A stretch of 64,000 bases of DNA, taken from positions 1 to 64,000 of the forward strand of contig JAHJJU010000105.1 in assembly GCA_018822805.1 (NCBI GenBank). The letters are read 5' to 3'. The DNA comes from a bacterium (GTDB lineage Bacteria; Campylobacterota; Campylobacteria; Campylobacterales; Sulfurovaceae). Below the pieces are notes generated by a model. The model saw nothing but the letters and a program-made list of their open reading frames with translations. It did no database searches and had not been told where the DNA came from. Shown one piece after another: positions 33,196 to 46,380 of this stretch; position 1 is the stretch's first letter, and every line of letters begins with the position of its first letter. The position numbers were made by a program, and so were the translations under genes.

Positions 33196-33447
33196 ATGCA
33201 ACTAGCCATAGATATACCCGATGAACTATTTTTAAGCATAAATGAGACTCAAACGAATCTTGTGCAGATGGTTAAACAAAAATTAGCACTAGAACTCTAT
33301 AAGAACCATAAAATATCTATCTCACAAGGGGCGAAGTTTGTAGATATGGATATTTACTCTTTTATGAGACTCTTAAATGAGCATAAAATACCTGCTATTG
33401 ATGATTATGATATAGAGGCTGAACTTAATGCTTTAAAAGGTATTTAG
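33196..33447 (+). CDS. UPF0175 family antitoxin-like protein
   Basis: LALELYKNHKISISQGAKFVDMDIYSFMRLLNEHKIP signature. Confidence 0.85.
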   Translation: MQLAIDIPDELFLSINETQTNLVQMVKQKLALELYKNHKISISQGAKFVDMDIYSFMRLLNEHKIPAIDDYDIEAELNALKGI

Positions 33448-33918
33448 ATGATTATTGGAGATAGTTCGGCTTTGATTGCACTCTCTGTGGTCGATAAATT
33501 GGAACTTTTGGAAGCATTGTATGAAAATCTTTTTGTGCCACAAGCTGTTTATGATGAAGTTACACAAGTGGGAAGACCACAAAGTGATAAGCTTACAAAG
33601 TTTTTGCAAAATAGAGTAAGAGTAGTTGATTTAAACCTAACCAAATTAGGTCTTGGACTTGGGGAACTTGAAGCCATTACGCTTTATAAAGAGTTGGATG
33701 CTGATGTATTGCTTATAGATGATAATCGTGCTAAAAAATATGCTGTTTTGAATGATGTGAAAGTGATAGGAAGCCTTGGTATTTTGATAAAGGCTAAAGA
33801 GAATGGACTTATTGAAAAAGTAAAACCTCTTTTGGAGGGAATTATGAAATCTGAAGTTTATATTTCTGAGAAGTTGATGTTACAGGTTTTAGGGATTTGT
33901 GATGAGTTGGAGAAGTAA
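33448..33918 (+). CDS. DUF3368 PIN-like toxin
   Basis: IIGDSSALIALSVVDKLELLEALY; GLGELEAITLYKELDADVLLIDDNRAKKYA; directly follows the UPF0175 gene. Confidence 0.87.
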   Translation: MIIGDSSALIALSVVDKLELLEALYENLFVPQAVYDEVTQVGRPQSDKLTKFLQNRVRVVDLNLTKLGLGLGELEAITLYKELDADVLLIDDNRAKKYAVLNDVKVIGSLGILIKAKENGLIEKVKPLLEGIMKSEVYISEKLMLQVLGICDELEK

Positions 33919-33939
33919 GCTTGGTAAGAGAATGACTTA

Positions 33940-34206
33940 TTGACTAAAGGAAAACAAGTAAAACCAACCCCACCCCCATCATTCCAAGAACCCATAACCC
34001 TAGAAAACATAGGTAAATTCATAAAATCAAGAAGAACACAACAAGGAATAAGTACCAATGATTGTGCTATGCTTTGTAATATTTCAGCTCATACACTTAA
34101 TAAAATAGAAAATGGTTTTGAAGGAGTAAGACTGAACACACTGCTACAAATTATGGAAGCTTTAGGAATGGAGATGAACATGAAAGCGTGGGATAGTTAT
34201 GAATAG
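33940..34206 (+). CDS. XRE/HipB-like HTH protein
   Basis: IGKFIKSRRTQQGISTNDCAMLCNISAHTLNKIENG HTH; likely TTG start. Confidence 0.75.
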   Translation: MTKGKQVKPTPPPSFQEPITLENIGKFIKSRRTQQGISTNDCAMLCNISAHTLNKIENGFEGVRLNTLLQIMEALGMEMNMKAWDSYE

Positions 34207-34487: not shown

Positions 34488-34519
34488 GATGATTAAAAAC
34501 CACTTTGCAAGGAACTCCA

Positions 34520-35626
34520 ATGGCACTCATAAACGACACAACGCTTCGTGATGGTGAACAAGCACCTTATGTAGCCTTTAATACCCAAGAGAAACTGAAG
34601 ATTGCTCAACTGCTTTATGAAGCTGGGGCTGATGAGTTGGAGGTGGGGATTCCTGCGATGGGTTCGCAAGAGCAGAGTGACCTTAAAGAGATTTTGGCTC
34701 TAAATTTACCCCTTCAAATTATGAGCTGGAATCGTGCGACCATGGGTGACCTTGAAGCGTCACTGACATGTGGAGTAAAGGCTGTAGATTTGTCGGTTCC
34801 TGTTTCCGACATTTTGATAAATGTGAAGTTCAAGGGAGACAGAGAGCGACTCTTTAGAAACCTTGAAGAGGTGGTGAGTGTTGCTAAAAAAGAGGGGCTG
34901 TTTGTGTGCATTGGTGGAGAGGATGCGAGTCGGGCTGATAATGGGTTTTTAGCAGAGTTGATGCATTTTGGTAAAGCGTTGGGGGCTGACCGTTTTCGTT
35001 ATTGTGATACGGTGGGGATTTTAACACCTCATCAGACTTATGAGAATATTTCAGCATTGAGTGCATGGAATATCTTGGATATAGAGATGCACACCCATAA
35101 TGATTTTGGAATGGCTACAGCAAACTCTATTGCAGGGATTGAAGCTGGAGCAAAGAGTGCCAATACAACCGTGATAGGCTTAGGTGAAAGAGCAGGAAAT
35201 GCTTCGTTTGAGCAGGTGTTGATGAGCCTAACCCACCAGTTTTCTGAAAAAAGAGTTATTAACTCCTTAAAGCTTAAAGAGTTGGTGCATACGGTTGCAT
35301 TGGCATCGAACAAATTGATTGCGACCAACACGCCTATTATAGGAGAGCATATCTTTTCTCATGAGTCGGGTATTCATGTGAGTGGTATGATTCATGCCAA
35401 CAATGCTTATGAAGCGTTTAAGCCTGAAGAGGTGGGGTTGTTTAGACATTTTCCCATTGGTAAACATTCAGGGAGTGCAACGCTGTTACATCATCTGAAA
35501 GCCATGGGAATTTTTCCTACTAAAGAGCGTGTCCAAGCTATATTGCCTAAAGTTCGGGAGATTGTAACACACCGTAAAGTGGTCATGAGTGGCGAAGAGT
35601 TAAAAGAGTTGTACTTATGTTCATAG
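34520..35626 (+). CDS. nifV: Homocitrate synthase NifV
   Basis: MALINDTTLRDGEQAPYVAF; EMHTHNDFGMATAN; nif context; ATG after AAGGA. Confidence 0.92.
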   Translation: MALINDTTLRDGEQAPYVAFNTQEKLKIAQLLYEAGADELEVGIPAMGSQEQSDLKEILALNLPLQIMSWNRATMGDLEASLTCGVKAVDLSVPVSDILINVKFKGDRERLFRNLEEVVSVAKKEGLFVCIGGEDASRADNGFLAELMHFGKALGADRFRYCDTVGILTPHQTYENISALSAWNILDIEMHTHNDFGMATANSIAGIEAGAKSANTTVIGLGERAGNASFEQVLMSLTHQFSEKRVINSLKLKELVHTVALASNKLIATNTPIIGEHIFSHESGIHVSGMIHANNAYEAFKPEEVGLFRHFPIGKHSGSATLLHHLKAMGIFPTKERVQAILPKVREIVTHRKVVMSGEELKELYLCS

Positions 35627-36426
35627 GATGGATTCGTGGCAATCGCCTAAAAGAGGACTTAGAAGCGTTTGAAGCCAGAAAAGTAGTCGATAAAAATCTG
35701 ATATTGACCACTTATGCTCAGAACCCAACTTACTGTTTTGGTATTTACGATGCCCAGAAATTGGTGGCACTTATTACAGCTTATGCGTTTGATGATTCAA
35801 TTTTATTAAATAACTTTTATGCACTTGATGAGGTGGAGATCGATTTAAAAAAGCGTTTGGTTCAACTGCTGTTAAACAATATAGAGAGTAATAAAACAGT
35901 CATGATATTGGCAAAAAGAGATGAGGTGGAGTATTTTAAAGCATTAAACTTTGTATCGTACGCTCGTTTTAAACAAGCCATTTTTAACGGTGGAGGCGTG
36001 GCGTTTAACTTCTCCAATGCTACAGCCAAAAGTATCAGCCATGAGAATTACCAAAGTGGACTTAAAAATTATGATTACAGAGCATTTAAAGAGGATAGGT
36101 TTGAGTACATCACCACAGCTGTTATGAAACAGTCATCGCTTTTGTTATCAAATGATTTTGGGTATCAACACTCGTACGCACTCAATCGTAATGTGATAAA
36201 AATCTCCCCATGGATTATGCAAAGCGAAGCATTGAGTGATGCTGAGAAATTCATTCGAGGGCTAATTTACCACCGTGGATTAAAAAAAATTATGGCGTTT
36301 ATTCCCGAGGTAAAAGAGATTACCGACCTCTACATATCGTATAAGTTTGAGTTGAAGGGTGGTTATCAACTGTTTTACTTGGGGAATAGACCTACCATTG
36401 ATTTGGAGATGGTTTATGCATTGTAA
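35617..36426 (+). CDS. nif-linked uncharacterised protein (possible tandem GNAT-like fold)
   Basis: ORF overlaps the nifV end; LVALITAYAFDDSILLNNFYALDEVEIDLKKRLVQLLLNNI pattern suggests acetyltransferase-like topology. Confidence 0.6.
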   Translation: MFIGWIRGNRLKEDLEAFEARKVVDKNLILTTYAQNPTYCFGIYDAQKLVALITAYAFDDSILLNNFYALDEVEIDLKKRLVQLLLNNIESNKTVMILAKRDEVEYFKALNFVSYARFKQAIFNGGGVAFNFSNATAKSISHENYQSGLKNYDYRAFKEDRFEYITTAVMKQSSLLLSNDFGYQHSYALNRNVIKISPWIMQSEALSDAEKFIRGLIYHRGLKKIMAFIPEVKEITDLYISYKFELKGGYQLFYLGNRPTIDLEMVYAL

Positions 36427-36495
36427 TACAAAATTTAATGCAACTTATTGCATGAGCCGACTGCTGAAGTCAACATTAATAAAAAAGGATAAAAC

Positions 36496-36702
36496 ATGAC
36501 ACTAACAGAAGAACAAAAAGCAATCAAAAAAGAGTACGCAAAATACAAAAGAATTGTAACACAAATTGCAGGTGAGATTCATGACATTGTTGAAGATACT
36601 ATTTGGACAGAGTATGAAAAGCTTTTAACCTTGAGTCAAGATGTACAAGTTGCTATGAAAGATGTTACCGATTTTAAAGCACAACATGACTTTCTAAAAT
36701 AG
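36496..36702 (+). CDS. DUF683 (CCE_0567-like) nif-associated small protein
   Basis: 68-aa helical hairpin; IKKEYAKYKRIVTQIAGEIHDIVEDTIWTEYEKLLTLSQ pattern; nif context. Confidence 0.7.
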   Translation: MTLTEEQKAIKKEYAKYKRIVTQIAGEIHDIVEDTIWTEYEKLLTLSQDVQVAMKDVTDFKAQHDFLK

Positions 36703-36715
36703 AGAAAGTATCTTT

Positions 36716-36976
36716 ATGCAAACTCTAGCCCAAAAGGAGATTGGTCAAAAAATCATTTGTGATTGTGGAGAGAAAAATGTTCTACAAGCCATTGAAATTT
36801 TTGAAGCAACCGAACTGCCCTATAAAAAAGCTAAAAAACTGGTGACAGGGTGCAATAAAACCTGTTGCAGACGACCCCTTATGGCACTTTTTAATATGGT
36901 CGATTTTGGAGCTATTGATTATGAAGAGATAGATTTTCTTATCGACCAATTTCAAGCACGATTTAAGGAGATATAA
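36716..36976 (+). CDS. Cys-rich nif-linked mini-protein, possible Fe-S (BFD-like) protein
   Basis: CDCGEKN...VTGCNKTCCRRPLMALFN; five cysteines in 86 aa. Confidence 0.55.
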   Translation: MQTLAQKEIGQKIICDCGEKNVLQAIEIFEATELPYKKAKKLVTGCNKTCCRRPLMALFNMVDFGAIDYEEIDFLIDQFQARFKEI

Positions 36977-36978
36977 CA

Positions 36979-37971
36979 ATGAATCAATACGATGCCTTTA
37001 TACGATGGGTCAAGTTCAACAATTTAAGTTCAACCATTCCTACAGCACCCACGCTACTAGATGAACTCTCGGTACTTGATTTGTCTAAAAAAAAACTAAG
37101 AGAACTTCCTGACTCTATAGAAGTTTTAAGTAATTTATGTGTTCTAAAACTCTCGGGGAATCGACTGAAAAAGTTGCCTGAAAGTATTGGAAAGTTAAAA
37201 AAATTACGTAATTTACAGTGTCAAGACAATCTTTTAGAGAAACTGCCACAGAGTATAGGTGAACTGGACTCCTTGGTGATTTTAAATCTCAATGGTAACC
37301 GACTTAAAGTTTTGCCAAAGAGCTTTTATCAACTCAGCAAACTCACCCGTTTAAGTATGGCAACCAACTCTTTGGAGTCGCTATCTATTGAGTTTAAAAA
37401 CCTTTCTAAGTTGCTTTATCTGTCACTTGATACCAACAATTTAAAAGAGTTACCCGATATTTTTGAGTATATGAATGCACTTTATTATCTTGATCTCTCT
37501 TATAATAAATTGAGCTACTTACCCAAATCTATCAGTCAAATTGAAGAGTTAGAGACCTTGCTGTTAGAGGGAAATAGCATTAGAGATTTACCCACGCTAG
37601 AGTCGCATGATATGCTGATTCGACTCAACCTAAACGACAATGATTTAACCGAACTGGATTTTGATATCAGTCAGCTAGAAGATTTAAAAATACTCACCCT
37701 TGACAACAACCATTTAGAGAAGCTACCTAATGAGATTTGTGAACTTAAAAGCCTTAGATACTTAAGTGCTTCTGCCAATAATTTAAGTGAGCTTCCTGAA
37801 TGTATTGGTGATTTAACAGAGTTGGTGGAACTGGATGTGGAGGAGAATAGCATTGGTGCATTACCTGTATCATTTACTAATCTTGTCAATCTTAAAAATC
37901 TTTATATTGCCCAAAATGGTAATTTGAGCCGACCTGCTATAGAGGGGTTGGAGTATTGTGATGTGGAGTAG
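36979..37971 (+). CDS. Leucine-rich repeat protein in nif cluster
   Basis: About a dozen LxxLxLxxNxLxxLPxxI repeats. Confidence 0.9.
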   Translation: MNQYDAFIRWVKFNNLSSTIPTAPTLLDELSVLDLSKKKLRELPDSIEVLSNLCVLKLSGNRLKKLPESIGKLKKLRNLQCQDNLLEKLPQSIGELDSLVILNLNGNRLKVLPKSFYQLSKLTRLSMATNSLESLSIEFKNLSKLLYLSLDTNNLKELPDIFEYMNALYYLDLSYNKLSYLPKSISQIEELETLLLEGNSIRDLPTLESHDMLIRLNLNDNDLTELDFDISQLEDLKILTLDNNHLEKLPNEICELKSLRYLSASANNLSELPECIGDLTELVELDVEENSIGALPVSFTNLVNLKNLYIAQNGNLSRPAIEGLEYCDVE

Positions 37972-37980
37972 GGAGTAGTT

Positions 37981-38943
37981 TTACAACTCCTCTTCACTCA
38001 ATCTATCCGATATAGCATCTATTTCTATTCGGATACTTTCCATCGACACCAAATAGTCACTATAAATCAAATCTGCAAAGTTACCACTATAGTACTCTTC
38101 AATCTTAGCCAAAACCATAGTCGTATCACTAAATATAGCCGTAGTATAAAGAGGAACCATCGCCCACTCTGAATGAAATTGACGACCATCATCTACGCGT
38201 ACACTCTGAATCATTGTAACAAAATCATCAGAGTTCAAAAATTGGATTATCTCCTTCTCTTGCATCAAGTAATAAAGGTCATAAAGATGTCTTATCTTCT
38301 TCTTCAACTCATCAAAATCTTTATCACTCTCATGTGAAGCTCTCGCTACAGCACTCAATTTTTCACAAAAAGTTCGCCGATAATCCAAAATATTTACGCT
38401 AAATGGTTCAAGTTCATACTCTGTAATAATATCATTAGCCTTAGCCAATAAAAAGTCATAAACATAAGATGAAATCTCTTGGAGTTGATAAGGATGTGGT
38501 TGTGCAAATGAGTTTAATTCTACAATAATATGGGAGTTTGCATGTCCAAAATTTCCACTCTCCAGCTTGGTATAATCATAAACAGTTTTTCTAAATTCTG
38601 AACCTTTTGAGACTTGTATATGGTCAACTATCTCTTCAAAATTGGCATCAACAATATTTTTTTCAATCCTCTTTATTAGCTTTTTTGTCTGATTAGAGGT
38701 CATATCTGTAGAGATAACTGCCAAATCAATATCTTCTGAAAATCTCTCTATCACTCGATAAGCTTTGGATAAAGCCGTACCACCCTTAAATATCGCCTGT
38801 TCGATATGTTCACTCTTTGAGAGAGCCTTTAAAATATAGGTAACCTAATAATCTTTCTCAATATACAAAAACGAGATATTCATCGCTTGGGCTGTTGCTT
38901 TTACAACATCTCCAAAAAGTTCACGGTTATCATGTAGTCTCAT
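37981..38943 (-). pseudogene. AbiEii-like nucleotidyltransferase toxin interrupted by an amber codon
   Basis: FKGGTALSKAYRVIERFSEDIDLAV signature; upstream part MRLHDNRELFGDVVKATAQAMNISFLYIEKDY then TAG (38845-38847) then VTYILKALSK; start ATG overlaps the AbiEi stop as TAATG. Confidence 0.8.
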
Positions 38944-39656
38944 TAGGCTATTTTCCATTCGTCTCGATTTGCCAATGTATCGCCACTAATTCCTATCTTA
39001 TAAGTCGTCAAAGGATTGAGCATCTCTTTTAACAGATACGCCTCTTGCCATCGTCCCATCTCTTTCAATATCGCTCCTAAGATGGCTTTGACTCTAGGGG
39101 GATATTTTCTTACAAGTTTTAACATCTTTTTTATCTTCTTCTCATCAAATTTTCTAAGAATCTTTTTAATAGAGAGAACAACATCATTTGGCGAATTGTC
39201 AGGAATATTTTTTATATCTCGTAAGGCATCTAAAATCTGTAAAAGTTGGGTATCTTTTACCCCACCATTGGCAATATTTGGCACAAACTTTATATTGACA
39301 TTTTCAATCCTAATTCGACTCGGAACACGATTTGAAGCGATGGTAATCACATTGGGTATCTGCGTTGTCAATCCCAATCGGTTATATCCCCCATACCCTG
39401 TTATATATCCCTCCTCTTCTACCAAATAACTTTTTGCAATCTCTTCATCACTAGGAGCTATCTCTCCAAATTGGGTCTGTTTTGGCTTATAAAATTTCCC
39501 TTTAGCAATCTTTTTGACCACACCTTTTTTAAAAAGACGAGAGAGTTCAATAGCCACAGATGATTTTTTACTGCTTGGTATATCGTTATAAGTGAAAATT
39601 TTGGTATCTTCTATCTGCTCTATAAAATCTCTGGTTATTTTGGCTACTGACATCTT
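38943..39656 (-). CDS. AbiEi-like antitoxin / DUF6088 transcriptional regulator
   Basis: DIPSSKKSSVAIELSRLFKKGVVKKIAKGKFYKPKQTQFG winged-HTH; start likely MSVAKITRDF. Confidence 0.8.
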   Translation of the reverse strand, partial: KMSVAKITRDFIEQIEDTKIFTYNDIPSSKKSSVAIELSRLFKKGVVKKIAKGKFYKPKQTQFGEIAPSDEEIAKSYLVEEEGYITGYGGYNRLGLTTQIPNVITIASNRVPSRIRIENVNIKFVPNIANGGVKDTQLLQILDALRDIKNIPDNSPNDVVLSIKKILRKFDEKKIKKMLKLVRKYPPRVKAILGAILKEMGRWQEAYLLKEMLNPLTTYKIGISGDTLANRDEWKIA

Positions 39657-39793
39657 TATCTCCTTTTTTTGATATGGGTTAATTATAGCAGATTTTGAAA
39701 TGTTTTTCAAGGTTTAAACTTTTTAATTTAAGGTTATATTTATTTTTATCTATACTTAAATCTTTTGTTTTGGATTTTTAAAAGTGGCTATTT

Positions 39794-39845
39794 ATGACAC
39801 GGTACTTTAATTCGGTACTTTAATTCATGACACGGTATTTTAATT
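39794..39845. repeat. Short tandem/partial repeats of (atgacac)ggtactttaattc
   Basis: cggtactttaatt at 39800-39812 and 39813-39825, then catgacacggtattttaatt at 39826-39845. Confidence 0.8.
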
Positions 39846-40013
39846 GTAAAAGGTATTTGATTTTTGTATTTTACAAAATGTTTAGTTTCAGTTTAAGCAA
39901 TATTAGCTCAAATGGCTATAATAAGAATAGGTATCAAAGTTTATTTAAGTTAAAGAACTGAATATACTACAATAATTCTAATTTTTTTAGGTTTAAGATA
40001 AAAAGGAAAACAA

Positions 40014-41081
40014 ATGGAAGATATAAATGATTATTATAAAGAGATGACTATTAAGTTAAGTAAATCAATCAATAGTAAAATCAAAATCTATTTAGATACA
40101 AAATATTGGGTTGATATATGTGATGTAACTCTCAATAAAAAAGATTGTAAAGATATAGAAAAAATATATCTCTATTTAAGAAAAGGTGTAAAAGAAAATA
40201 GATTAATTTGTCCTATCAGTTATAGAATATTTAAAGAAATTTTAACACAAAGTGATAACAAAAGTTTAACACAAACTGTTAAAATCATTGATGAATTATC
40301 ACAAGGTTCTATTCTTAGGGAAGAAAGAGAACGCTTATCCTTAGAATTATATAATTTTTTTTATGATATATTAAATGTAGAAACAGATGAAAAAGCTAGA
40401 GAAAACTATTGGGATTTTATTGCAAATATAATGGGTTATGCAATGCCAAAACTTTTAACCTTATCGTCAAAAGATAACTTATTGATGCAAAAAGAATGGC
40501 TTAAATTAATTAAACAAATTAGATTAAAAGATATGCTAAATACTAAATTGAAAGATAACTTATTTAGGTTTAGAGATATGAAAATAGATACAAATATATA
40601 TGATTTAAATAAGCACTTACATAGTACAAAACATAATACTTTTCAAAAAATGTATTTATCTGAATTAGGTGGTACTATTGAAGCTTATCAAAAAAATATT
40701 CATAATATTTTTAAAGATGTTGTAGATTATAAAGCAAAAAAAAATAGTGTTACTATACCAACTGTAGATACTACAGATAGTCAACGAATAAGAAACATGA
40801 TATATCATGCTTTTAGAAAGGGTAAAATGAATCTATACTTACCTTCATTAGATATAAAGGCAATGTTACATGCAAAACTAAGATGGAATAAAACACAGAA
40901 ATATAAGCAAGGAGATTTTGATGATATTGGACATGCAACTTCTGCACTTCCTTATTATGATTATTTTTTTACAGAACGGAGTTTGTACAATATGATAAAA
41001 GAGTGTAAATATGATGAGAAATATAATTGTAAAATAGCATGGAAAAAGAGTGATGTTTTATCATTTTTAATTAATTCCTAA
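40014..41081 (+). CDS. Predicted standalone PIN-like domain protein
   Basis: N-term IYLDTKYWVDI and C-term GDFDDIGHATSALPYYDYFFTERSLYNMI acidic motifs typical of PIN-like nucleases. Confidence 0.6.
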   Translation: MEDINDYYKEMTIKLSKSINSKIKIYLDTKYWVDICDVTLNKKDCKDIEKIYLYLRKGVKENRLICPISYRIFKEILTQSDNKSLTQTVKIIDELSQGSILREERERLSLELYNFFYDILNVETDEKARENYWDFIANIMGYAMPKLLTLSSKDNLLMQKEWLKLIKQIRLKDMLNTKLKDNLFRFRDMKIDTNIYDLNKHLHSTKHNTFQKMYLSELGGTIEAYQKNIHNIFKDVVDYKAKKNSVTIPTVDTTDSQRIRNMIYHAFRKGKMNLYLPSLDIKAMLHAKLRWNKTQKYKQGDFDDIGHATSALPYYDYFFTERSLYNMIKECKYDEKYNCKIAWKKSDVLSFLINS

Positions 41082-41221
41082 AAATAGACTCTAGAACTCT
41101 AAGTGTCAAGTGATAATGATAAATTCAACCCTTAAGTCCAAGCCTATAATCGACAATATCCCCCAATTTAAGTTTTATTATTTGAAAGATGTTTTTCTCC
41201 TTAATCTGCACACTTTTAAAA

Positions 41222-41752
41222 TTATAAAGAGCCTTCTTTTTGAAGAAGTTCAGATTTTTCTGTAGTATAAAGTTTATCAAAATCAAAATTTAGATAATAA
41301 ATATAGCTAATAGCATCAACTTCTTTAGTTGGGAATAACTTACAATTAAAAGATATTGAACCATTTTTAACTGATATATAATTAGACTCTCCAAGTTCTG
41401 AAGAAGATACTTTATATTTTTTCTCTAAAGTACTTCTAATTATAGAAACATCATCACTACACAATGCTATTTCGTCTATAGAATATTCTTTAGTAGCGTA
41501 TATAGCATAAACTTTTTTTGTTTTGGGGGTTACAGCAATATAATATTTATCATAATAGTTACTTGAAGATGTTGGGTAAATTAGATTCATTTTATTACCA
41601 TATTTAATAATAAAGTGATTCCTTGTACTCTCAATACCCTTGAATTCTTCCCCAAATTTTATACCAAAAGCATCTTCTAAGTTGATTTTACTTATTTCAC
41701 GATTATTACAAGATGTAAACATAATAGCAATTATTAAAAAAACAGCTTTCAT
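41222..41752 (-). CDS. Putative lipoprotein, uncharacterised
   Basis: MKAVFLIIAIMFTSCNN lipobox. Confidence 0.6.
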   Translation of the reverse strand: MKAVFLIIAIMFTSCNNREISKINLEDAFGIKFGEEFKGIESTRNHFIIKYGNKMNLIYPTSSSNYYDKYYIAVTPKTKKVYAIYATKEYSIDEIALCSDDVSIIRSTLEKKYKVSSSELGESNYISVKNGSISFNCKLFPTKEVDAISYIYYLNFDFDKLYTTEKSELLQKEGSL

Positions 41753-42090
41753 TTTTTTCCTTTTAAAGAATATTTTATCAAATAAAAGCTTTACTCCTTA
41801 TAGTTTTAGTTTTTAAATTATCTTAAGGTTACTACACTTTAGACAAAAAAAAGAGAGGAATAACTAGAATTTAGGAAAAATATGATTCTTATGAAATATG
41901 CAAATATACATAAGAATCATACAACTTATACTACAAAGTATCCAATATAAAAATAAAGAGTTGCTACTAACCTAATACCCCTGCCGTTAAATCTCCACTT
42001 TTATATAGTTCAGGAATTGACCATTTATCCATCGTGGCAACCTATGTAAATCGTCATGAACGCCAAGAGGATATTTGGCAGATTGCCAAA

Positions 42091-42129
42091 AATACAGGGG
42101 TCAAATACAGGGGTCAAATACAGGGGTCA
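42091..42129. repeat. Three perfect 13-bp tandem repeats (aatacaggggtca)
   Basis: Direct reading. Confidence 0.92.
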
Positions 42130-42263
42130 AAGCCATTTTATAAACAAAACTTAAATATAACTTTATCGTCCTCTTTGTAATCTCGGTTAAAATCGTCATG
42201 CCCGTTGTCGGTCAAGAACTCATTCTTCCAATGGATACAGGTGCAGTTAACATAAAAATAACC

Positions 42264-42376
42264 GTAGAGCTTAATATTGAGGAGAATAATATCTCTAAAT
42301 TCCCTAGTTCATTTACAAATCTAATGCGTTGAAGCGACCTGAATTGGAGGGGCTTGAGTATTGTGATGTGGAATAA
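42264..42376 (+). pseudogene. Degenerate second copy of the nif-LRR gene 3' end
   Basis: VELNIEENNISKFPSSFTNL... and KRPELEGLEYCDVE* versus intact LRR VELDVEENSIGALPVSFTNL...LSRPAIEGLEYCDVE*. Confidence 0.8.
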
Positions 42377-42389
42377 AGATTAAAGAGAC

Positions 42390-42406
42390 GGAACACTTTA
42401 TGCATA
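42390..42406 (+). promoter_or_regulatory. Sigma-54-like promoter upstream of nifE
   Basis: GGAACACTTTATGCATA: GG-N10-GC. Confidence 0.72.
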
Positions 42407-42442
42407 CCAATTTAAAAGACCACTTTTAAAATTGGAGCAACG

Positions 42443-43789
42443 ATGGTAAACCGAAAACTGATAAAAGAACTTCTGAATGAATCCTCGTGTAGCCACAACA
42501 AAGACAAGGATAAAAAGGGAGGGTGTGACAAACCTAAACCAGGGGCGACTTCGGGTGGGTGTGCATTTGAAGGGGCTCAGATAGCTCTTTTTCCTTATGC
42601 TGATGCTGTTCATTTGGTTCATGCACCTGCTACCTGTCAAGGGGCTTCATGGGAGACCCGAGCGACCTTGACCAGTTATGAGGGTGAGGACAATACCCCT
42701 TTGGGTTATTACACCGACATTACAACCAATGATGTTATTTTTGGTGGTCATGAAAAGCTTGAAAAGAGCATTGAATACATCGCTGAACATAAAAACCCCA
42801 AAGCCATTTTTGTTTATGAAACTTGTGTTACGGCAATGATTGGTGATGACATGGACAACATTGCGTCGCGTATGGAAGAGAAGTATAAAATCCCTATTGT
42901 GGTGGTTCATGCACCAGGGTTTGTGGGTGGTAAAAATTTGGGTTCACGCCTTGGTGGTGAAGCTGTTTTGAACCATCTTATCGGTACACGAGAACCTGAG
43001 GAGATTCACCCATTTGGAATCAATCTGATTGGTGACTACAATGTCACAGGTGATATGTGGCAATACACCCCGATTTTAGAGAAGATAGGGATTAAAATCG
43101 TCTCTACTTTGGCAGGTGATGGACGAATTGAGAAGATTCAAACAGCACACAGGGCAAAGCTCAATGTCATCGTCTGTGCCAAATCACTCATAACGCTTAC
43201 ACGAAAAATGGAAGAGCAGTACCAAATTCCTCATGTATCGGTCTCATTTTATGGGAAACGCGACACCAGCAATGCCATACGAAGCATTGTCAATGCCTTT
43301 GGAGATGAGGCACTAAGTAAAAAAGCTGAAGAGGTGATAAAAGAGGAAGAGAAGAAGCTAGAAGAACGACTACTTCCCTACCGAAAAATCTTAGAGGGTA
43401 AAAAAGCCATACTCAATACAGGTGGAAACAAATCGTGGTCAATCGCTTCTGCCTTGCAAGATATCGGCATAGAGGTAGTCGCAACGAGCATACGAAAAGC
43501 AACCCTTGAAGATATAGAGATTGCTAAAGAGTATGTGCCGATTCTTATGAAAGTCCCAGCCAATGAACAAGCCAAACTGATAGATGAACATGGTGTGGAT
43601 ATTTTGCTAGCAGGGGGAAGAAGTCTCTATACTGCGATTAAAAAGAAAGTTGCATTTGTCGATGTAAACCAAGAGAAGAAGATAAGTTATGGGGCATATG
43701 GTGGGTTAGAAAATTTAGCCATTGATGTCTGTGCTGCTGTGAATAATCCTGTGTTTGGGGTTGTGGGTAGGGAGGCTCCGTGGGAGTAG
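42443..43789 (+). CDS. nifE: Nitrogenase FeMo-co biosynthesis scaffold NifE
   Basis: CSHNKDKDKKGGCDKPKPGATSGGCAFEGAQIALFPYADAVHLVHAPATCQGASWETR. Confidence 0.93.
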   Translation: MVNRKLIKELLNESSCSHNKDKDKKGGCDKPKPGATSGGCAFEGAQIALFPYADAVHLVHAPATCQGASWETRATLTSYEGEDNTPLGYYTDITTNDVIFGGHEKLEKSIEYIAEHKNPKAIFVYETCVTAMIGDDMDNIASRMEEKYKIPIVVVHAPGFVGGKNLGSRLGGEAVLNHLIGTREPEEIHPFGINLIGDYNVTGDMWQYTPILEKIGIKIVSTLAGDGRIEKIQTAHRAKLNVIVCAKSLITLTRKMEEQYQIPHVSVSFYGKRDTSNAIRSIVNAFGDEALSKKAEEVIKEEEKKLEERLLPYRKILEGKKAILNTGGNKSWSIASALQDIGIEVVATSIRKATLEDIEIAKEYVPILMKVPANEQAKLIDEHGVDILLAGGRSLYTAIKKKVAFVDVNQEKKISYGAYGGLENLAIDVCAAVNNPVFGVVGREAPWE

Positions 43790-43818
43790 CCTTTATTCTT
43801 GTTTATACCAAGGTAATA

Positions 43819-44409
43819 CTAGTTAAAACCTATACCACTTTTTAGCTCTATTATTTCATTCTGTATTAAAGTTAAAAGTGTACTAATCTCTTTTTTATTA
43901 TTTTTGTGAAATCTATAAGATTCTTCAGAATAAAAAGAAGAATAATTTGTGTCATCATGTACTTCCTTTGAATTATTAATTTCGTTTTGCAAATTTTTAA
44001 AAGGAATTATAATTTTTTGATATTGTTCATAGAGACTTTCTGAAATAATAAACCTATTGTTTTCAAGCTTCTTTTCAAGGGAATTACATAATGTTTCTAT
44101 AATTTCATTCCCTGATGTTTCATACATCATATACCCATGTGTTTCATCAAAATCATAGGATTTATTTCGAATTGTCTTTAATCCTAAATAAAAATCATTT
44201 ACAATAGACTGTAACTCTATATATAACTCAATTTTTTGAGAAAATAATTTTTGATACATCTCTTTTGTAATTTGGTGTTTTTTCTCCTCTTTTAACTCCA
44301 CTGCCTTATTTTTCAGCTCTAACCACTTGAGGCAAACTGCACCACATATAGATATCAAACCTGTAACAGACCCTATAATTGCTAAAGTATCTTTTACATC
44401 TAAATCCAT
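43819..44409 (-). CDS. Hypothetical single-TM coiled-coil protein
   Basis: ORF with N-terminal TM IIGSVTGLISICGAVCLKWL; start MDLDVKDTL preferred. Confidence 0.6.
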   Translation of the reverse strand: MDLDVKDTLAIIGSVTGLISICGAVCLKWLELKNKAVELKEEKKHQITKEMYQKLFSQKIELYIELQSIVNDFYLGLKTIRNKSYDFDETHGYMMYETSGNEIIETLCNSLEKKLENNRFIISESLYEQYQKIIIPFKNLQNEINNSKEVHDDTNYSSFYSEESYRFHKNNKKEISTLLTLIQNEIIELKSGIGFN

Positions 44410-44470
44410 TCTTTTCCTTGTTACAACATTATACATATGTAGATTGGAGATTTTGTTTTATCTCTTAGTA

Positions 44471-44776
44471 TCATCTACTAACCACAGTTTCATAATTCGT
44501 TATTGGATCTTTCCGTTGGTCTAATACAGCGATAACTGTAGCGACATAATCAGAGATATCATAATAAACTACATAGGGAAAACGTTTCGCTAACATTTTG
44601 TATGCTCCATACTCTTTCATATGGATGCCAGCATAAAAGTGTAGTGACTCAATGTCGGTAATAAGACTATCATAAAAATAGTTACCCAACTCAATAGCTT
44701 GTTTTTCATAAAATGCTCTACTAAGCTCCAAATCATTTAAAGAATCTTCTGTTACTAATACTTCAAAAATCTTCAT
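44471..44776 (-). CDS. RelE/ParE-family toxin
   Basis: VLVTEDSLNDLELSRAFYEKQAIELGNYFYDSLITDIESL; KRFPYVVYYDISDYVATVIAVLDQRKDP. Confidence 0.85.
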   Translation of the reverse strand: MKIFEVLVTEDSLNDLELSRAFYEKQAIELGNYFYDSLITDIESLHFYAGIHMKEYGAYKMLAKRFPYVVYYDISDYVATVIAVLDQRKDPITNYETVVSR

Positions 44777-44977
44777 TTATCGTCTTGCTTTGAGTTCATC
44801 AAGTGTATAAGTTTTGACCTTACCCTCTTTTAGTTTTTTCATTCTAGCTTCTAAAATCTCTTTATGCCACTCTGGAGACTCAGGTTCAGTTGTTTCTGTA
44901 CGAAGTGATTCCCAAAGTGTTTCCATAAGATGAACACGTTGACTAATAGGCATACTTTTAATATCGTTGAATGACAT
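44777..44977 (-). CDS. Addiction-module antitoxin (putative addiction module component family)
   Basis: MSQRVHLMETLWESL-like motif; WHKEILEARMKKLKEGKVKTYTLDELKARR; adjacent to the ParE-like toxin. Confidence 0.85.
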   Translation of the reverse strand: MSFNDIKSMPISQRVHLMETLWESLRTETTEPESPEWHKEILEARMKKLKEGKVKTYTLDELKARR

Positions 44978-45055
44978 TTGTAATCCTTAAGATTGAACTT
45001 ATTTATTATAGCATAGAAAACTCAACATACAACCATGGCTATTTTGAAAATTCAC

Positions 45056-45072
45056 GGAACACTTCTTGCATA
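45056..45072 (+). promoter_or_regulatory. Sigma-54-like promoter upstream of nifN
   Basis: GGAACACTTCTTGCATA: GG-N10-GC. Confidence 0.75.
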
Positions 45073-45105
45073 AAAACCTTAAACCCCTCACTTTAGGATA
45101 ATAAA

Positions 45106-46380
45106 ATGACCAAACCACTACAAATAAACCCCATAAAATTATCCCAACCCATGGGAGCGATGTTCTTTTTTTTAGGTGTTAAAAATACGATGCCACTTAT
45201 GCATGGGGCTCAAGGGTGTGCTTCGTTTTCTAAAGTCTTTTTTACGCGACACTTTTCTGACCCTATTGCTGTGCAGACGACGGCTGTGAATGACATTACG
45301 GCTGTGATTGATGGGGGAGATTATTCAATTTCTGAGGCGATTAAGAACATTACTAAAAAGGTAAAGCCTGATTTGGTCGGGTTGTTTACCACAGGAATGA
45401 CCGAGACCAAAGGCGATGACATTAAAGGGGCAACTTATTTACTAAGAGATAAACAGAAGATGGTCTATGTGCATACGCCTGATTTTGAAGGGGGCTTAGA
45501 GAGTGGATTTGCTAAAGCGATAGAGGCGACGATAGAGCAGGTAGTAGAGCCTACTACGGTGATAGATAAACAAAAAGCGTTGATTATTCCTAATGTCAAC
45601 CTGACTCCAATAGAAGTTGAGATACTCAAGGAGGAGGTGGCTTCTTTTGGATTTACACCGTATGCTTTGCCTGATTTAAGTGAGTCGCTCGATGGTCATT
45701 TGGGGGGGGTAAAACAGGGGGCTGTGAGCAGTGGTGGTATAGAGATTGCTGACATAGAAGCGTTGGGGGAGAGTGCTGTGGTGATAACCATTGGGGATTC
45801 GGTTAAAAAATGTGGGCTTAAGATGGTGGAGAAAAATGAAAAGACCACCCATTTGCATTTTGATACCATCTCAGGGCTTAAAAAAGGGGATGCTTTTTAT
45901 AAAGCTCTTTTAAATTTTAAAGGGTTAAGTCGACCAACTCCTAGCGTGATACGATGGAGAAAACGACTGCAAGATGCCCTGCTCGATACGCATTTTGCTA
46001 TTGGTGGAGCAAAAGTGGTAATTGCTTGTGAACCTGACCAATTGTTGTCGATTGCAACAACCATTAATGAAGCTGGAGCAACCATAAAAGCTGTGGTAAG
46101 TCCCACCAAAAGTGTGGCACTTGAAAATATACCTACCGAAAATATTGTGATTGGTGATTTTGAAGATGTTGAAGAGTATCTGGAGGATGCTGATATTCTA
46201 ATTAGTAATTTTCATGGGGAAAGAATCGCTCATAAACATCATACAGCATTAATGTTACGGGGATTTCCAAACTATGAAGAGGTAGGGAATCAGTTAAAGA
46301 ATGACCAGCTCTATAGAGGCTCAACCTATATGTTGTTTGAATTGGCAAATATCGTCAATCATTATAAATATGGGCATTAA
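45106..46380 (+). CDS. nifN: Nitrogenase FeMo-co biosynthesis scaffold NifN
   Basis: INPIKLSQPMGAMFFFLGVKNTMPLMHGAQGCASFSKVFFTRHFSDPIAVQTTAV. Confidence 0.93.
   Translation: MTKPLQINPIKLSQPMGAMFFFLGVKNTMPLMHGAQGCASFSKVFFTRHFSDPIAVQTTAVNDITAVIDGGDYSISEAIKNITKKVKPDLVGLFTTGMTETKGDDIKGATYLLRDKQKMVYVHTPDFEGGLESGFAKAIEATIEQVVEPTTVIDKQKALIIPNVNLTPIEVEILKEEVASFGFTPYALPDLSESLDGHLGGVKQGAVSSGGIEIADIEALGESAVVITIGDSVKKCGLKMVEKNEKTTHLHFDTISGLKKGDAFYKALLNFKGLSRPTPSVIRWRKRLQDALLDTHFAIGGAKVVIACEPDQLLSIATTINEAGATIKAVVSPTKSVALENIPTENIVIGDFEDVEEYLEDADILISNFHGERIAHKHHTALMLRGFPNYEEVGNQLKNDQLYRGSTYMLFELANIVNHYKYGH

Follow-up and report, generated by a model that had tools for sequence, protein, structure and literature searches.

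In Pseudomonas stutzeri A1501, an LRR gene lies immediately before nifE (PST1332-PST1333), and NifA and RpoN consensus sites are listed before nifE (PMC2820453). Our locus shares this gene order but differs from that of A1501, where the consecutive locus tags leave no place for a second LRR end or for toxin-antitoxin genes between the two. Other described systems share single traits with our locus. Xenologous gene displacement in place also puts a gene of foreign history inside an otherwise vertical operon, but here a fragment of the LRR gene was left behind and the direction of exchange fits either lineage. Integrative elements that duplicate the 3' end of a gene likewise leave that gene end repeated on either side of the inserted DNA, but at our locus the duplicated part includes the promoter of the next gene and no recombinase was found among the named ORFs of the insert. 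Homology-facilitated illegitimate recombination, which has been described in bacteria capable of transformation (PMC6382021), should give a homologous edge on one side, a non-homologous edge on the other and leftover resident sequence; here, a mechanism of this kind is a possible reading of the sequence. Lastly, AbiE type IV toxin-antitoxin systems with a DUF6088-type AbiEi have adjacent antitoxin and nucleotidyltransferase toxin genes, as does the pair found here, which differs in carrying an in-frame stop in the toxin frame and had no part in the duplication of the LRR end.

The stretch of DNA that we analysed (the window, 64 kb) is part of a 111-kb contig of a draft genome (2.8 Mb; 99.8% complete) whose nearest named relatives are Sulfurovum-like Campylobacterota; all genomes compared are draft metagenome assemblies. 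In the window, 4.5 kb separates the end of the intact LRR gene from the start of nifE, and a search against Rfam returned no match across 36400-45200. The features that frame this interval are:

36979-37971, forward strand: intact nif-LRR gene, 330 aa (ORF; Pfam LRR_8/LRR_14; G151 orthologue 91% identical)
42264-42376, forward strand: decayed LRR 3' end (copy 2), with a deletion and a frameshift (alignment, shuffles, repeat finder, comparison with G151)
42443-43789, forward strand: nifE, 448-aa ORF with its ATG at 42443, up to 96% identical to nifE of related nif clusters

A preliminary description of the window had claimed that just before nifE lies a decayed copy of the LRR 3' end, altered by a deletion and frameshift within it, and that the tail shared by the two copies speaks against a generic LRR match. 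Nucleotide alignment of 42264-42376 with the LRR 3' end (37820-37971) gave a score of 88, far above shuffled sequence (maximum over 500 shuffles: 61.5) and above the score of 43 obtained with the rest of the LRR gene. Independently, a repeat finder ranked the pair 37924-37977 and 42329-42382 first among direct repeats (54 nt; 78% identity; spacing 4405). The remnant translates as VELNIEENNISKFPSSFTNLMR up to a stop and then, in another frame, as LKRPELEGLEYCDVE up to a second stop, in agreement with the deletion and frameshift described. It also retains the C-terminal E[FY]CD signature; the fuller tail [LMFI][DE][FY]CD was present in 40 of 47 listed nif-LRR tails, some of them from duplicate loci or cut off at the end of a contig. 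Because this tail marks the nif-LRR family, the match is not one to a generic LRR consensus, and we conclude that 42264-42376 is a true fragment of a nif-LRR 3' end.

Two further features concern the DNA that follows each LRR end:

42389-42404, forward strand: predicted sigma-54 -24/-12 element of nifE, CGGAACACTTTATGCA, with GG-N10-GC at the same place in other nifE loci
37972-37980, forward strand: possible rest of a decayed upstream copy of the nifE promoter (after the TAG: GGAGTAGTT), clear only in G151

A GG-N10-GC element was found at -45 to -66 of the nifE start (about 50 nt) in 21 of 32 loci, where 0.8 would be expected, suggesting that it is the sigma-54 promoter of nifE; upstream NifA sites (TGT-N10-ACA) were almost absent within 400 nt of nifE. 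In G151, both LRR ends are followed by GGAACAGTTCTTG, which is nifE leader material, and the stretch after the intact LRR stop matched the nifE leader above all 2000 shuffles. This upstream leader copy has a broken -12 element (GG-N10-GG instead of GG-N10-GC). In the window, the upstream promoter copy is almost gone and is not significant alone by the shuffle test. The downstream LRR fragment is best read as DNA retained beside a needed promoter, having been kept because the duplication extends over the predicted sigma-54 promoter of nifE.

G151 (JAHZJZ010000216.1) is the genome closest to that of the window (G000), with 91% identity in LRR and 96% in nifE. Its order is intact LRR, 0.9 kb, nifE, and the 0.9-kb insert encodes a PIN-domain protein (Pfam PIN 7.8e-08) with a small partner gene on the minus strand. 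This PIN toxin pair is its cargo, without the AbiE, PIN-like or lipoprotein genes of the window. Next come AGGGGTCAAAGCCGTTTTATAAA, then GAATTGGAGGGGCTTAAGTATTGTGATGTGAAGTAG, and then the nifE leader. The G151 remnant is a shortened form of the window remnant (30 of 33 shared nt identical, compared to 24-25 to the intact copies), and the two genomes have a common right edge, AGGGGTCAAAGCC.TTTTATAAA. Since the scar is shared and the cargo is not, the duplication must be older than the present cargo; likewise, the AbiE cargo did not make the duplication, because the sister genome bears the same scar with another cargo. The scar was found in these two genomes only.

Comparison of the LRR-nifE junctions of relatives revealed a single LRR gene, with no second copy, joined directly to nifE in Sulfurovum sp. 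bin1001 (G152; gap of ~66 nt) and Nitratifractor sp. bin10079 (G019; gap of ~12 nt); in the remaining loci where both genes were seen, LRR sits elsewhere. Among 399 genomes of the order, 45 carry nif-LRR at E<=1e-70, always as one match, and none of the 45 has two copies at that threshold. The preliminary description had offered two options, a tandem LRR paralogue destroyed by an incoming island or an island that brought a duplication of its target end. Both remain close to the truth. A copy of the LRR 3' end does flank the inserted material, and neither of the results that the description had named as refuting it was obtained. The alternative was nevertheless too simple, since the duplicated piece also includes the nifE sigma-54 promoter and the AbiE cargo is not its cause, and a former intact tandem paralogue is something we infer at most, because no searched genome has two nif-LRR genes. 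What matters most is that the two genomes share the scar, that the cargo has been exchanged and that the promoter was duplicated along with the LRR end.

The left and middle parts of the cargo in the window contain:

37981-38949, reverse strand: abiEii toxin frame with an in-frame stop at codon 38 (Pfam AbiEii 1.2e-20; PADLOC 1.5e-55; frame reading)
38943-39710, reverse strand: abiEi antitoxin, DUF6088 (Pfam DUF6088 6.4e-13; PADLOC AbiEi 1.7e-45)
39790-39845, no strand assigned: ATTTATGACACGGTACTTTAATT in two copies of 23 nt, seen nowhere else in the window genome
40014-41081, forward strand: PIN-like ORF, 355 aa (3 homologues in 175 genomes of the family; neighbours)
41222-41752, reverse strand: predicted lipoprotein, 176 aa (ORF with a signal and a lipobox-like start, MKAVFLIIAIMFTSC)

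The AbiEi/AbiEii pair noted earlier in this segment was thus recovered by both Pfam and PADLOC, with the two family proteins encoded side by side. The toxin frame is interrupted by its one in-frame stop, which precedes the GGTAL nucleotidyltransferase motif and may be an assembly error, leaving 37981-38754 as the uninterrupted downstream ORF. AbiEi has relatives at about 40% on Bacteroidota plasmids (Pontibacter, Hymenobacter) and was found in only 1 other genome among 175 of the family. The GACACGGTA repeats are unique to this place with up to 2 mismatches allowed. The PIN-like ORF exists as described; it was called PIN-like from its residues only and has no significant match in Pfam, NCBIfam or PADLOC. 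Two of its 3 homologues (L091, L092) lie directly behind genes that we read, from their translations, as being of restriction-modification type, and the 355-aa family is possibly an undescribed defence accessory. For the lipoprotein, the lipobox-like start agrees with the earlier assignment, and searches of Pfam, NCBIfam and PADLOC gave no family match.

The right part of the cargo, between the lipoprotein gene and the LRR remnant, contains:

42009-42087 (about 42010-42090), forward strand: RND-pump gene fragment A (tblastn with the RND protein of the same genome, 61.5% across residues 623-648)
42090-42160, forward strand: dispersed genus repeat, AAATACAGGGGTCAAA three times and then GCCATTTTATAAACAAAACTTAAATATAA, with the same edge beside the remnant in G151
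42164-42262, forward strand: RND-pump gene fragment B, joined to the LRR remnant (75% nt identity to G000:C94; 68% aa identity, residues 544-581)

The two RND fragments, the triple AGGGGTCAAA repeats and the duplication of the nifE promoter had been missed in the preliminary description. The fragments stand in swapped order, A being downstream of B in the source gene, with the repeat between them, and the last few matching residues of fragment B run past the LRR junction. A longer motif, AGGGGTCAAAGCNNNTTTNTA, qualifies as a dispersed genus repeat, being found in 8 of 34 genomes of the genus, at 11 places in all, and nowhere in reversed controls; several of its copies lie beside genes that we read, from their translations, as PIN or AbiE-like, and its longer form was not found in viral contigs. 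G166 carries the repeat joined at an identical position to the same RND piece (80% across 132 nt). Judged by these matches, the right part of the cargo is debris in which a dispersed genus repeat is fused to pieces of an RND-pump gene. The possibility that AGGGGTCAAA is repeated in high copy number across the window genome was rejected, as it occurs in 8 places only, most of them within genes. Two species of the genus share the junction of the repeat (AGGGGTCAAA units and GCYATTTTATATAACAAAACTTAAATAT) with this RND fragment (42090-42262 and L140:1481-1610).

We consider it probable that the LRR 3' end and the nifE promoter were duplicated in the common ancestor of G000 and G151 and that the gap was filled later by differing cargo. 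From the duplication, the shared scar, the different cargos, the promoter copies and the single-LRR outgroups, we infer an order of events in which the junction of LRR 3' end, sigma-54 promoter and nifE would have come to exist twice in that ancestor. The upstream copy would now end the intact LRR gene, and the downstream copy would be the LRR 3' fragment with the predicted working nifE promoter. Both genes would have stayed whole because the duplicated unit holds the LRR end and the nifE promoter, and the space between the copies would have become a harmless landing place, since an insertion there would break neither the LRR frame nor nifE expression. This gap would since have received toxin-antitoxin and defence genes, the dispersed repeat and RND-gene debris, with the cargo differing by lineage; the upstream promoter copy would have decayed, and the downstream LRR fragment would survive only as the DNA that immediately precedes the nifE promoter. 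Genome changes of these kinds are already known and require no new mechanism. The locus offers a readable example of foreign cargo settling in a nitrogen-fixation cluster without breaking it.

How the junction was duplicated may be related to the history of the neighbouring genes, which changes at the following position:

36600-36720, no strand assigned: recombination breakpoint (sliding identity; quartet-informative sites; LRR and nifE trees; gene-by-gene identities)

To the left of 36.6-36.7 kb, the window genome is a closer match to G152 than G019 is; to the right, across orf86-LRR, G152 pairs with G019. Gene-by-gene identities place the switch between orf68 and orf86, just left of orf86. 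The LRR tree groups (G000,G151) and (G152,G019), in strongly supported conflict with the nifE tree, (G152,(G000,G151)). On these comparisons the history of orf86-LRR differs from that of the flanking nif genes, nifV and nifE, and concatenated nif-gene trees would therefore mix histories. We also observed that nifV and orf269 (34505-36426) group G151 with G152 and not with the window genome, suggesting another recombined segment, and that the nifN-to-rpoN block of G152 (L029:2960-8806) has the opposite orientation to that in the window, one of the breakpoints lying immediately behind nifE.

Because the block has its own history and a breakpoint at ~36.6-36.7 kb, it is plausible that orf86-LRR is a recombined block and that the scar junction marks its end. 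This is the route that we slightly prefer, tentatively, a tandem duplication being about as likely. A divergent orf86-LRR block, perhaps with cargo, would have entered by homologous exchange on the left (~36.6-36.7 kb) and by illegitimate joining on the right, inside the resident LRR gene, whose end would be the remnant. Such an entry would explain the scar and the tree conflict by one event, and its two edges are those of the documented process cited above. Likelihood placement of the 99 comparable nt of the remnant, however, gave no significant preference for G152 and G019 (AU p 0.34, compared to 0.88 with the intact copies; 9 sites compared to 12), and the exchange could have occurred in G152 instead, whose LRR is unusually close to that of G019; the distance ratios fit either G000/G151 or G152 as the recombinant. 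Alternatively, and with a chance also short of even, the whole LRR gene and the nifE leader were duplicated in tandem, and the second copy lost its 5' part to entering elements, namely the repeats, the RND debris and the toxin-antitoxin genes. That account needs no donor, and agrees with a remnant of at least 113 nt that goes with the leader and whose placement slightly prefers the intact copies; it leaves unexplained why the conflicting history of orf86-LRR ends at the same junction, and two complete copies were found in no relative, each of the 45 LRR-bearing genomes among the 399 having one match. The 99-nt remnant thus appears to fit both a recombined block and a plain tandem duplication.

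Attachment sites often lie at the 3' ends of genes, and a site-specific integrative element that used the LRR 3' end in this way could have duplicated it and left the 54-nt direct repeat at both ends. We regard this as improbable, as the named ORFs of the inserts in the window and G151 include no recombinase or transposase family (Pfam), the end repeats are only 78% identical with no identical att core, and the cargos of the sister genomes are completely different, with no common left part. An assembly artefact, conceivable in draft metagenome assemblies, is scarcely credible given that the independent G151 assembly has the same scar and that the window contig is 111 kb long in a genome 99.8% complete.

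Other modules also lie near nifE. The nifE-nifN gap of the window holds an antitoxin (Unstab_antitox) with a weak ParE-like ORF at 44471-44977, and that of G151 a DUF5615/DUF433 pair (L049:11395-11984). Four different modules at two sites in two genomes hint at recurrent exchange at the edges of nifE. It is conceivable, though we hold it doubtful, that the LRR-nifE and nifE-nifN gaps are recurrent exchange sites made safe by promoter-bearing duplications and that the modules stabilise the nif cluster; toxin-antitoxin modules would then be gained and lost with the sigma-54 promoter preserved, and they may help to retain the costly nif cluster. Among the results that a literature search listed, none connected toxin-antitoxin genes with nif clusters of the Sulfurovum-like group. 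Should further genomes regularly show toxin-antitoxin genes at the flanks of nifE, stabilisation of nif clusters by such modules would become testable. Two smaller observations concern the same clusters. The nifE gene of G151 (L049:10001-11348) is split by a frameshift into 374 and 85 aa, which may be an assembly error. Just upstream of nifV in the window, 33196-34206 carries a UPF0175/DUF3368-PIN pair and an HTH protein, a third toxin-antitoxin-like module.
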